Source: Phytoactinopolyspora alkaliphila
Lineage (GTDB): Bacteria > Actinomycetota > Actinomycetes > Jiangellales > Jiangellaceae
DNA length: 64,000 bases
NCBI RefSeq assembly: GCF_010550695.1
Contig: NZ_JAAGOB010000002.1
Coordinates: 372,001-436,000 of the forward strand
Reading direction: 5' to 3'
Shown: one piece after another, positions 49,875-53,176 of the stretch
How the letters are laid out: every line of letters begins with the position of its first letter
Numbering within the stretch: position 1 is the stretch's first letter
Translations under genes and position numbers: made by a program
Notes under the pieces: generated by a model
Seen by the model: the letters and a program-made list of their open reading frames with translations, nothing else
Told to the model about the DNA's origin: nothing
Database searches by the model: none

Positions 49875-51263
49875 TTACTGCGGCGCTCGGGCGGGGAGGC
49901 GTACCCGCAGTACCGTCCCACCCGGCTGGGAGTCGATGCTGATCGTGCCGCCGTGGCGCTCCATGATGATGCGACGTGCGACGTCGAGGCCAAGACCGGT
50001 GCCAGCGCCCAGGTCCTTGGTTGTGTAGAACGCGTTGAACGCGCGCTCCGCAACGCCCGGCGACATACCCGGGCCCGTATCGCCGACCTCGACGACCACG
50101 AAGTCCCCATCAGCCCGCGTCGTCAACCGGAGTGTGCCCGCGCCGTCCATCGCGTCGGCGGCGTTGTCGATGAGGTTGGTCCACACCTGGTTGAGCTCGC
50201 CGGGGTAAGCCTCGATGCGGGGGATGTCGGCGTCGTAGTCACGCACCACCATGACGCCCTTGCGGAGCTTGTGTCCGAGCATAACCAGCGTGCTCTCCAG
50301 GCCGTCCGTGATGTCGATGTGCTGCCTCGACGCACGATCCATCTGGGAGTAGGACCCGACCGCGTCGACCAGCTCGGAGATGCGCCGGGTGGCTTCCTTC
50401 AGTTCCGACATCAACGCTGCCGCGGTGACCGTGCTCGCCACCCATTCCAGGCCTGCTTCCAGCGCGGCTCCCTCAAGCACGACCGCGACGCGTTCGCACC
50501 AGGCGACGTCGACGCCAGCAGCCGCAAGCGGCGGGGCGATGACCCAGTCGCGCTCGATGCCGTGGCGACTGAGCCACGTTGAGAGGGCTTCCTCGTGATC
50601 AGCCATCCCCAACGCGTCCTCGAGCGCCGTTCGAGGCTCGATCTCGGTTCGCAGCCCGTCGAGCGTCGAGAGCTGCCGAGCCGAGATCCCACCCTGAGCG
50701 AGCCGGCCCAGTGACGAGAGCAGCGTCTGGCACGCGCCTTCGAGCGCATCGACGGAGCGCGTGGCGGCCGCAGCCGGATTGTTGATCTCGTGCGCAAGGC
50801 CCGCGGCAAGCGTGCCGAGGGTGACCAGAGCCTCGCGCTGGCGCACCGTGGACTCGATGGTGCGTGCCGTGCCGTACAGCCCTTCGATGAGGTGACCGCC
50901 GAACGGGAACCAGGTGTCACACAGCTCACGCAGTACGCCCGAGGGCAGCCGGAGCAGCCGTCCGTCGATGACTCCCCGGCCGGTCGCCAGATAGACACCA
51001 TGTTCATCCCAGGCGCGAAACCCGCCGGCCCAGCGACCGGCGACGGACATCCTTCCGACGACGGTCTCCTCGCGTCCGATGTGGCGGACGAGGTCGACGG
51101 CGCCCTCGACGAGCACCCACCAGAAGTCCGCGTACTCACCCTCATGGAACAAGTCGATACCGGGCTCGATCCGGACCTCGGTGCCGGCGGCGAGGAGTTC
51201 CGCAAGCTGGTCGCCGGTCAAGCCGTCGAAGACGGGCAGTCTGCGGAGGTCATCGAGGCGCAT
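49875..51263 (-). CDS. Sensor histidine kinase with N-terminal cyclic-nucleotide-binding-like domain
   Basis: 462 residues. Residues 1-130 form a CNB/CRP-like beta-roll (FDGLTGDQLAELLAAGTEVR, DLFHEGEYADFWWVLVEG). The dimerisation helix carries the phospho-accepting histidine in LAAGLAHEINNPAAA (near 158). The ATPase part has NLIDNAADAMD (N box), VGDTGPGMSP (G1) and GTGLGLDVARRI (G2). There are no membrane helices, so it is cytoplasmic. Its ATG shares an A with the stop of the response-regulator gene (TGATG), so the two are coupled. A nucleotide- or redox-type signal is plausible. Confidence 0.93.
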   Translation of the reverse strand: MRLDDLRRLPVFDGLTGDQLAELLAAGTEVRIEPGIDLFHEGEYADFWWVLVEGAVDLVRHIGREETVVGRMSVAGRWAGGFRAWDEHGVYLATGRGVIDGRLLRLPSGVLRELCDTWFPFGGHLIEGLYGTARTIESTVRQREALVTLGTLAAGLAHEINNPAAAATRSVDALEGACQTLLSSLGRLAQGGISARQLSTLDGLRTEIEPRTALEDALGMADHEEALSTWLSRHGIERDWVIAPPLAAAGVDVAWCERVAVVLEGAALEAGLEWVASTVTAAALMSELKEATRRISELVDAVGSYSQMDRASRQHIDITDGLESTLVMLGHKLRKGVMVVRDYDADIPRIEAYPGELNQVWTNLIDNAADAMDGAGTLRLTTRADGDFVVVEVGDTGPGMSPGVAERAFNAFYTTKDLGAGTGLGLDVARRIIMERHGGTISIDSQPGGTVLRVRLPARAPQ

Positions 51264-52921
51264 CAGATCGAGGCCAGGTAGCGGTGCACGAGGTAGACCG
51301 ACATCGCGCCCTCACCGACGGCCGACGCGACGCGCTTCATGGAGTCCAGCCGGACGTCGCCGGCGGCGAACACCCCGGGCACACTCGTTTCGAGCGCGAA
51401 GGGCACCCGGTGCAGCGGCCAGCGCTGAGCGAAGGCCGGATTGTGGAGATCTTGACCGGTCACGACGAACCCCTTGTCGTCACGGACGACGTCAGGCCCG
51501 AGCCAGTCGGTGCGTGGCGAGGCACCGATGAAGACGAAAAGCCAGCTCGCCGATACTTCATCGCGGACGCCGGTAATCCGATCCGCCAGAGTCAGGGCCT
51601 CGAGGTGGCCGTCGCCCCGGCACTCCACCACCTCGCTGCGGTAACGCACGTCGATATTAGGTGCGGACTTGATGCGATCGACAAGGTACTGGGACATCGT
51701 GTCCTCGAGAGTCGCCGCCCGGACCACCAACACCACGCACTTGGCGAATTTTGCCATGTTCAGAGCGGCTTGACCTGCCGAGTTGGCGGCGCCCACGATG
51801 TAGACGTCGTCGCCCTGGCACTGGCTCGCCTCGCTGGCGCTCGCACCGTAGTAGACCCCTCGGCCAATCAGCTCGTCGAGACCCGCTGCTGCCAAGCGGC
51901 GGTAGGACACGCCGGTCGCCACGATGAGCGCGCGAGCCTCGATCTCCGCCGAGCCTTCGAGCAGCACGGCATGCACCGGCCCGCGGGTCTGGAAGCCGAT
52001 CACATCGCGCGCGAGCACCATTTCGGCACCGAAGCGAGAAACTTGAGCGACTGCTCGATGGGTGAGGTCAGAGCCCGCCAGCCCTCTGGGAAATCCCAGA
52101 TAGTTCTCGATCGCCGCACTTTGACTGGCCTGGCCTCCAGGCGCCTCACGCTCGACGACGACGGTGCTCAGACCCTCCGACGCCGCGTACACCGCAGCGG
52201 CCAGGCCCGCCGGGCCGCCACCCACGATGCACACGTCGTACAGCGGCTGCTCGGCTCTGGTGCGCAGGCCGAGCGCGTCGGCCACATCGAGACTGGACGG
52301 CGAGCGGAGCGCCTCACCGTCGGGCACGAGCACCAGCGGTAGATCGGCCGCTGTCGCCTGAGCGAGTTGGCTCAAGCGCTGCGCCTCGGCATCGCGCTCT
52401 ATGTCATACCAGCGGTAGGGCACGTGATTGCGGGCGAGGAAGGTCTTGATCTCGTGGCTGCGATCGGACCATTTGTGCCCCACCACGCGCAGGCCGGACG
52501 TGTAGTCCGGGTGGGCATCGCGCCAATCGCCGAGCAGGTCATCAACGACGGGGTAGAGCCGTTCCTCCGGAGGATCCCATGGCTTGAGCAGGTAGTAGTC
52601 GAGACCGATATCGTTGATCGCCTTAATAGCGGCGTCTGTGTCAGCGTATGCCGTGAGCAGGAGGTACTTCGCGTCCGGCGTCTGGGTACGTGCCTGCTCC
52701 AACATCTCGATGCCGGTCATCTCCGGCATCCGCTGGTCGGCGGCGATCAACGCGACCGGCTGATTTCGCAGTGCAAGTGCGGTCAGCAGGGCCAGGGCAT
52801 CGGCACCCGACCTCGCCTGCAGGATGCGATAGGCCGCGCCGTACCGGCTACGCAGGTCCCGGGTGATCGCCGCGGAGACCTCGCGATCGTCGTCGACGGT
52901 CAGGATGGCGGGTTTGCTCAT
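51263..52921 (-). CDS. Response regulator fused to thioredoxin-reductase-like flavoprotein
   Basis: 552 residues in three parts. Residues 1-130 are a receiver (VDDDREVS, phospho-accepting aspartate near 62 in AADQRMPEMTG, LTAYADTD, LLKPW). Residues 140-215 are thioredoxin-like, with WSDRSHE where a CxxC would sit. Residues 230-552 are a TrxR-type FAD/NADPH fold (VGGGPAGLAAAVYAASEG, APGGQASQSAAIENYLGFP, FAAGDVRLDSMKRVASAVGE), but the CATC redox box is missing (GVYYGASASEASQC). So it is probably a flavin-dependent oxidoreductase controlled by phosphorylation, not a disulfide reductase. ATG 52921 follows GAGGG. Confidence 0.92.
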   Translation of the reverse strand: MSKPAILTVDDDREVSAAITRDLRSRYGAAYRILQARSGADALALLTALALRNQPVALIAADQRMPEMTGIEMLEQARTQTPDAKYLLLTAYADTDAAIKAINDIGLDYYLLKPWDPPEERLYPVVDDLLGDWRDAHPDYTSGLRVVGHKWSDRSHEIKTFLARNHVPYRWYDIERDAEAQRLSQLAQATAADLPLVLVPDGEALRSPSSLDVADALGLRTRAEQPLYDVCIVGGGPAGLAAAVYAASEGLSTVVVEREAPGGQASQSAAIENYLGFPRGLAGSDLTHRAVAQVSRFGAEMVLARDVIGFQTRGPVHAVLLEGSAEIEARALIVATGVSYRRLAAAGLDELIGRGVYYGASASEASQCQGDDVYIVGAANSAGQAALNMAKFAKCVVLVVRAATLEDTMSQYLVDRIKSAPNIDVRYRSEVVECRGDGHLEALTLADRITGVRDEVSASWLFVFIGASPRTDWLGPDVVRDDKGFVVTGQDLHNPAFAQRWPLHRVPFALETSVPGVFAAGDVRLDSMKRVASAVGEGAMSVYLVHRYLASI

Positions 52922-53176
52922 GGACAATCCCTCAGCCGGCCTCGGGCGCCCACCCCGAAGGGGAGCCTGGAGGGACGAAAGACAATTGGGGACAAGCGTA
53001 ACGCCGGAGTTATCACCGGGCTAGCCCATACATGCAGCGGTATCGAGCTCCCGCCAGACCCCGACTCCATGTCGATGCGCTGGCTCTACCCGTGAGGCAC
53101 CCGATGACTCTGGCGGTCGTTCAATGCCGCGTGGGGCTCACGTCATGGCGACCCCACGCGGCCACTCGCCCAGACC

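Follow-up and report, generated by a model that had tools for sequence, protein, structure and literature searches.

A predicted two-component pair whose response regulator carries a thioredoxin reductase-like flavoprotein without redox cysteines

A 64,000-nucleotide stretch of the Phytoactinopolyspora alkaliphila genome (contig NZ_JAAGOB010000002.1, positions 372,001 to 436,000; here called the window) encodes a soluble histidine kinase next to a response regulator that joins a receiver domain to a thioredoxin (Trx)-like part and a thioredoxin reductase (TrxR)-like part. Kinase and receiver both have intact signatures, and the FAD motifs are present; both cysteine pairs of the flavoprotein are missing, here and in all aligned relatives. 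We favour, with a probability of about 0.62, a two-component system in which phosphorylation of the receiver's Asp64 by the kinase regulates an attached flavoprotein that is no dithiol disulfide reductase. The flavoprotein would most likely bind FAD and a pyridine nucleotide. With both cysteine pairs gone, the dithiol relay of TrxR could not run, and the reduced flavin would hand its electrons straight to a partner, or the protein would report the NAD(P)H or oxidant state; Cys370 may act as a lone thiol. We infer the phosphotransfer, the binding of FAD and nucleotide, the direction of control and the acceptor. A first-pass annotation, made from the letters alone, had pointed out the missing cysteines and proposed an NAD(P)H/FAD reaction or redox sensing as the output; the observation is confirmed here and the interpretation is partly supported. 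That annotation had overlooked a possible zinc-finger partner, an insert in the kinase hairpin, a sister form with a cyclic nucleotide-binding domain at the place of the receiver, and earlier published fusions of a receiver to TrxR.

The response regulator gene (51263..52921, minus strand; 552 residues from its ATG) was delimited from open reading frames (ORFs), Pfam and homologues, and the kinase gene (49875..51263, minus strand; 462 residues) from ORFs and Pfam, in agreement with the first-pass annotation. The stop codon of the former and the start codon of the latter have one base in common (TGATG). We prefer the ATG at 52921 to a TTG at 52927 because a GAGGG-like ribosome site (judged by eye) precedes it. 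Residue numbers of the response regulator are counted from the TTG (554 residues), and ATG-based numbers are lower by 2. Pfam lists Response_reg (residues 8-120) and Pyr_redox_2 (230-540) for this protein and no DNA-binding domain among its families, as expected from the earlier view that its output is not DNA binding. Neither protein contains a 19-residue stretch with a mean hydropathy above 1.53, and since the best such stretch of the kinase reaches 1.35, a membrane segment is not evident; the description of a coupled, soluble kinase is upheld by this, by the one-base overlap and by the linkage reported below. Scans for promoters and for terminators each gave 0 hits. PADLOC models at E 0.001 gave 0 families for the response regulator and 0 for the kinase, and the idea of an anti-phage defence system was rejected on the lack of a match to either protein.

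In the TrxR-like part, GASASEA (residues 361-367; 51827..51847, minus strand) occupies the place of CATC. GASA is aligned opposite the CATC of the genome's own TrxB, and pairwise BLAST puts a gap exactly there. The second substitution lies in a Trx/glutaredoxin-like domain (about residues 146-222; 52262..52492, minus strand), proposed from the secondary structure of the predicted model, in which WSDRSHE (residues 153-159; 52451..52471, minus strand) provides SxxS for CxxC. Because this motif sits where the first strand of a beta-alpha-beta-alpha unit passes into its first helix (146-149 and 154-165 in the model, whose numbering is one lower), and because Pro197 further on is invariant in an alignment of 18 sequences (A1), we place SxxS at the CxxC position of Trx; the fold assignment itself rests on the order of elements in the model and on this proline. 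Both motifs had been recognized at first pass, with the suggestion that orthologues be surveyed for the same loss. Such a survey shows that the loss is shared. Among 120 relatives (80 named loci and 40 from a genome search, a subset of all matches), a cysteine stands at position 361, 364 or 154 in none and at 157 in two. In a second alignment (A2), made of the window protein and 63 of 79 listed relatives, the others having been excluded by eye under no stated rule, serine is found at the first SxxS position in 60/64 rows and at the second in 52/64, and a CxxC occurs in a single sequence of the 64, at an unrelated site. Since it is family-wide in the relatives aligned, the cysteine loss goes beyond chance.

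The response regulator has four cysteines, at positions 233, 370, 397 and 436. The one that is widely conserved, Cys370 (51818..51820, minus strand; 58/64 rows of A2, 90/120 relatives), lies six residues beyond the second lost TrxR position. It does not rescue an intra-chain dithiol relay, because the next-best cysteine column is filled in only 16/64 rows of A2. The earlier caveat that orthologues might hold their cysteines elsewhere in the fold is therefore touched only in part: a lone cysteine is kept, with no second conserved one. Cys370 is commoner beside a kinase (80/92) than without one (10/28). In several kinase-less loci (L149, L151, L156, L158 and others) the receiver is decayed, the flavoprotein is kept and position 370 is mostly Met or Leu.

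A disulfide or mixed-disulfide reductase that uses Cys370 as its single catalytic thiol, perhaps together with a low-molecular-weight thiol, would account for the conservation in A2 and for the cysteine found at this place, by eye, in all six relatives that carry a fused cyclic nucleotide (cNMP)-binding-like domain. EgtB- and EgtD-like genes in the neighbourhood of four Bacteroidota copies (L052, L056, L071, L081) point the same way; NCBIfam, applied to L052 and L081 only, places EgtB over its cut-off and EgtD at 281-282 bits against a cut-off of 290.9. We nevertheless consider such an enzyme quite improbable, as another residue stands at position 370 in 30/120 relatives, a resolving cysteine is not conserved and no EgtD match is found in this genome. 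The phylum-wide link to the ergothioneine system is weak (19/39 versus 37/159 of 198 genomes, p 0.003, uncorrected for kinship) and lineage-specific, and this system was rejected as a general partner. Near the kinase/response regulator pair of the three Dyadobacter loci among these four, ProV-like ATP-binding cassette (ABC) transporter genes are also present.

The FAD/NAD(P)H module with the TrxR fold (residues 230-554; 51266..52240, minus strand) stands as first described: it matches Pyr_redox_2 with 118.9 bits and TrxR structures in the PDB. In its FAD motif GxGPAG, the G, G and P and a later GD are invariant in A2, and the A and last G are nearly so; FAD binding by the response regulator is predicted from these motifs. 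Fold and FAD motifs are shared with the low-Mr TrxR, TrxB, and the TrxR part is 33% identical to the TrxB of this genome. The response regulator differs from TrxB in lacking CATC, in its added receiver and Trx-like domains and in an altered HRRDQLR stretch. At the latter position lies VVRAATLEDTMSQYL (residues 401-415; 51683..51727, minus strand; from A2 and the TrxB comparison), in which VVRAATL is opposite HRRDQLR of the genome's own TrxB. The arginines of HRRDQLR bind the 2'-phosphate of NADPH in TrxB, and with only one of the three kept, NADPH use by this module appears doubtful. R403, M411, S412, Y414 and L415 are fixed in 64/64 rows of A2, which, beside the replaced motif, suggests a nucleotide site that is kept but changed. 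The HRRxxxR NADPH motif is a defining feature of thioredoxin-disulfide reductase. Judged by its sequence, the protein has neither this motif nor a CxxC in the NAD(P)H domain, and its TIGR01292 score (212.7 bits) is below the cut-off of 343.45.

An AlphaFold2 (AF2) model of the response regulator has a mean predicted local distance difference test score (pLDDT) of 90.0, and the structure-comparison (VIA) rows cover its residues 225-553. The model superposes on the flavin-reducing TrxR structure 5mh4 with Z 31.9 and a root-mean-square deviation (rmsd) of 2.2 Å over 301 residues, and on 1f6m, which we take to be a flavin-reducing form as well, with Z 29.6 and rmsd 2.6 over 310. Against 5mjk, the oxidizing form of the same enzyme as 5mh4, the values are Z 28.1 and rmsd 7.9 Å over 295 residues. 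A flavin-reducing fit would be expected of a protein with no disulfide to bring up to the flavin.

Absence of CxxC is shared with ferredoxin/flavodoxin-NAD(P)+ reductases (FNRs) of the TrxR fold, according to an excerpt of an account of these enzymes (PMC10294844). An FNR of this type under receiver control would thus fit the fold and the FAD motifs. However, the sequence is far nearer to TrxR than to FNR, both in profile searches (6e-63 for the best TrxR versus 4.9e-27 for the best FNR listed) and in single-sequence searches (2.3e-43 versus 1.5e-13), and we regard this assignment as very improbable. No FNR entry is among the 50 structure matches listed, and no receiver is named in the FNR excerpt. 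Like the response regulator, AhpF has an N-terminal redox part before a TrxR fold and matches the response regulator model in fold, yet an excerpted description gives it cysteine pairs in both parts (PMC8945050); the response regulator has none, with SxxS at the N-terminal pair, and carries a receiver in addition. Its TIGR03140 score is 159.6 bits, with the cut-off at 502.9.

The receiver domain (residues 8-120; 52568..52906, minus strand) scores 58.5 bits against Response_reg (cut-off 30.2) and contains the phospho-acceptor Asp64 (52736-52738, minus strand). D12, D13, D64, T92 and K115 are present in 64/64 rows of A2. The protein thus has the receiver fold, acidic pair, acceptor Asp, Thr/Ser and Lys by which a response regulator is recognized in sequence. 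On the kinase side, the HATPase_c domain (residues 356-459; 49887..50198, minus strand) scores 85.2 bits, and nine residues that were checked, H158 among them, do not vary across 55/55 kinases of a third alignment (A3: the window kinase and 54 of 67 kinases, the rest again excluded by eye under no stated rule). A phospho-His, N and G boxes and HATPase_c identify it, at the sequence level, as a histidine kinase.

The two genes tend to occur together. At E 1e-8, 72/80 named loci contain a kinase match, which in some of them covers the kinase core only; a near-full-length match at E 1e-30 is found in 62/80. Asp64 is kept in 91/91 kinase-linked relatives versus 14/27 in whose locus no kinase was matched (kinase match at E 1e-15, 2/120 relatives dropped for gaps; Fisher p 3e-10, uncorrected for kinship), and this co-loss makes phosphotransfer within the pair likely. 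In L121, L122 and L074, three kinases of the same type stand beside a single response regulator.

Several observations weigh against the preferred interpretation. In a tree built by a quick method from the window protein, 40 random kinase-linked rows, 26 kinase-less rows (L154 excluded), 8 partial matches and one TrxB, with an unsure root and an outgroup branch of 5.38, the rows that lost Asp64 group in a single clade of 18 kinase-less rows, so the 13 losses cannot be counted as independent events. The tree requires a minimum of 6 changes for the loss, 2 of them forced by starred branches. Within the decayed clade, however, the residues at position 64 vary from row to row, as expected under relaxed constraint. 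Of the 28 kinase-less loci, 5 run out within 1 kb to one side of the gene and may hide a kinase. The flavoprotein is kept in kinase-less relatives and so does not need phosphorylation in every case, and Cys370 is missing in the 30 relatives mentioned above. With its 2'-phosphate region changed, the nucleotide site could be altered or out of use, and the flavin-reducing conformation could be a preference of the AF2 model.

Some of these features would also suit a TrxR-like part that is a ligand-binding redox sensor and no enzyme. The state of FAD or NAD(P)H would then set how readily the receiver accepts phosphate, and the signal would run from the flavoprotein to the kinase and to partners such as proteins with a UBP-type zinc finger (zf-UBP). 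The missing dithiol, the lack of a conserved second cysteine and the altered nucleotide motif agree with this, as do the tandem kinases beside one such protein and the joining of zf-UBP to a kinase and to antiporters described below. But the good conservation of the nucleotide fold and of the FAD residues is compatible with catalysis, and the tandem kinases fit conventional many-to-one input equally well; we consider a pure sensor unlikely and retain the phosphorylation-controlled flavoprotein as our preferred interpretation.

The kinase itself is unusual. Its HisKA match is weak (14.5 bits, cut-off 26.9) and covers the first 18 residues only, which we ascribe to an insert. The usual spacing from H-box to N-box is about 100 residues; it is 200-213 residues in 55/55 kinases of A3. 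In the predicted model (mean pLDDT 84.8; predicted template modelling score, pTM, 0.52) a helix spanning 121-190 and a second hairpin helix spanning 266-310 are separated by four short helices (195-262), and we therefore place a helical insert (about residues 195-262; 50478..50681, minus strand) within the dimerization and histidine phosphotransfer (DHp) hairpin, after H158. At the N-terminus lies a degenerate cNMP-binding-like domain (residues 30-116; 50916..51176, minus strand), which scored 26.5 bits against cNMP_binding in one scan (cut-off 27.5) and 29.8 bits, over the cut-off, in another. The canonical phosphate-binding cassette, searched with our own pattern, is present in 2/55 kinases of A3, and the window kinase is not one of them: its cassette region reads GGFRAWDEHGVYLAT, against GELSLFDPGPRSATA in the genome's own CRP-like protein, and does not match the cassette with its Glu and Arg. 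As 53/55 kinases lack the cassette, neither cAMP nor cGMP is likely to be the ligand; of the cNMP-like sensor proposed at first pass, the domain stands and the canonical phosphate-binding site does not. The kinase of L139, outside A3, has a canonical cassette by eye.

A cNMP-like domain also occurs on the flavoprotein side. In 6/8 partial matches examined (by eye, with Pfam on one), it replaces the receiver at the front of the same Trx-like and TrxR-like module, over which these proteins are 43-46% identical to the response regulator; the cysteine pairs are again absent by eye. Such a replacement suggests that the front part regulates the common back part as an exchangeable regulatory module. 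Reciprocal profile scores do not support a special kinship or shared ligand of the kinase and fused cNMP domains. A profile of the fused domains (6/8 partial matches; L116 and L120 were excluded for want of a clear cNMP start) scored the kinases at 33.2 bits in the median (42.3 for the window kinase) and the CRP-like protein of this genome at 35.7, and a kinase profile gave the fused domains 66.7-81.7 bits and the CRP-like protein 75.1. The receiver form is annotated 'FAD-dependent oxidoreductase' where named. The closest relatives of the window protein in the genome search (L003, L004 and L005; 77-80% identical, adjoining kinase 66-72%) lie outside its class, in which the best match is 56% identical, a pattern of either transfer of the pair or a binning error.

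A third component may belong to the system. Proteins with a zf-UBP domain are encoded in 28/80 named loci (flanks up to 8 kb), in Actinomycetota, Bacteroidota, Cyanobacteriota and others. Among 198 genomes of the phylum (module called at E 1e-80, cNMP-fused forms and this genome included), zf-UBP is found in 31/39 with the module versus 14/159 without it (odds ratio 40, p 3e-18, uncorrected for kinship and genome size). Module and zf-UBP share a contig in 19 of these 31 genomes, this one included, lying within 7.6 kb of each other in 12/19 and within 1.6 kb in 11/19. In L108 the three genes form an operon. The kinase of L139 carries the domain as a C-terminal fusion (40.4 bits, cut-off 22.7), and fusions to Na+/H+ exchanger-type proteins occur in L136 (by Pfam) and in L132, L133 and L135 (by eye). 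The only zf-UBP match of this genome is likewise the C-terminal tail of an Na_H_Exchanger protein; it lies outside the window, at a distance of about 61 kb from the response regulator (protein at L112:247-1737; zf-UBP at 486306-486500, G000:C12). When neighbours were clustered across the 80 named loci, only ABC ATPases (17 loci) appeared in more than 7 loci besides the pair and zf-UBP; ORF picking was crude and recovered the response regulator itself in 55/80, so absences in this analysis are weak. We can propose only tentatively a widespread three-part redox-signalling module, in which a degenerate-cNMP kinase with a sensor-like DHp insert, a dithiol-free, receiver-controlled TrxR fold and a zf-UBP adaptor (free, kinase-fused or antiporter-fused) would work together, and in which ion transport or other targets would be set jointly by phosphorylation and the flavin/NAD(P)H state. 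Neighbourhoods of zf-UBP may have been described in a 2011 survey of prokaryotic treble-clef domains, and we do not claim this link as new to print.

Fusions of a receiver to TrxR are already in print in a census (PMC5847659), where a receiver is likewise joined to a TrxR-type domain; its excerpt makes no mention of cysteine loss, a Trx-like middle part, zf-UBP or a kinase whose DHp hairpin holds an insert. Our literature search, confined to open-licence papers, found no functional account of the receiver/Trx-like/TrxR-like architecture and did not meet the cysteine loss, the kinase insert, the zf-UBP link or the co-loss of kinase and Asp64. The family in which the cysteines are lost is large and little-studied. 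Some of its members, of the cNMP-fused form, are annotated as thioredoxin-disulfide reductases (on a plasmid, 'Cyclic nucleotide-binding domain-containing thioredoxin-disulfide ...'), yet 0 aligned relatives have the residues of the dithiol reaction. The zf-UBP link provides a bacterial setting for a domain known from eukaryotes, where it is a ubiquitin-binding module (PMC4506424). If the dithiol-free flavoprotein is indeed controlled by phosphorylation, this would be a two-component system that acts directly on redox chemistry.

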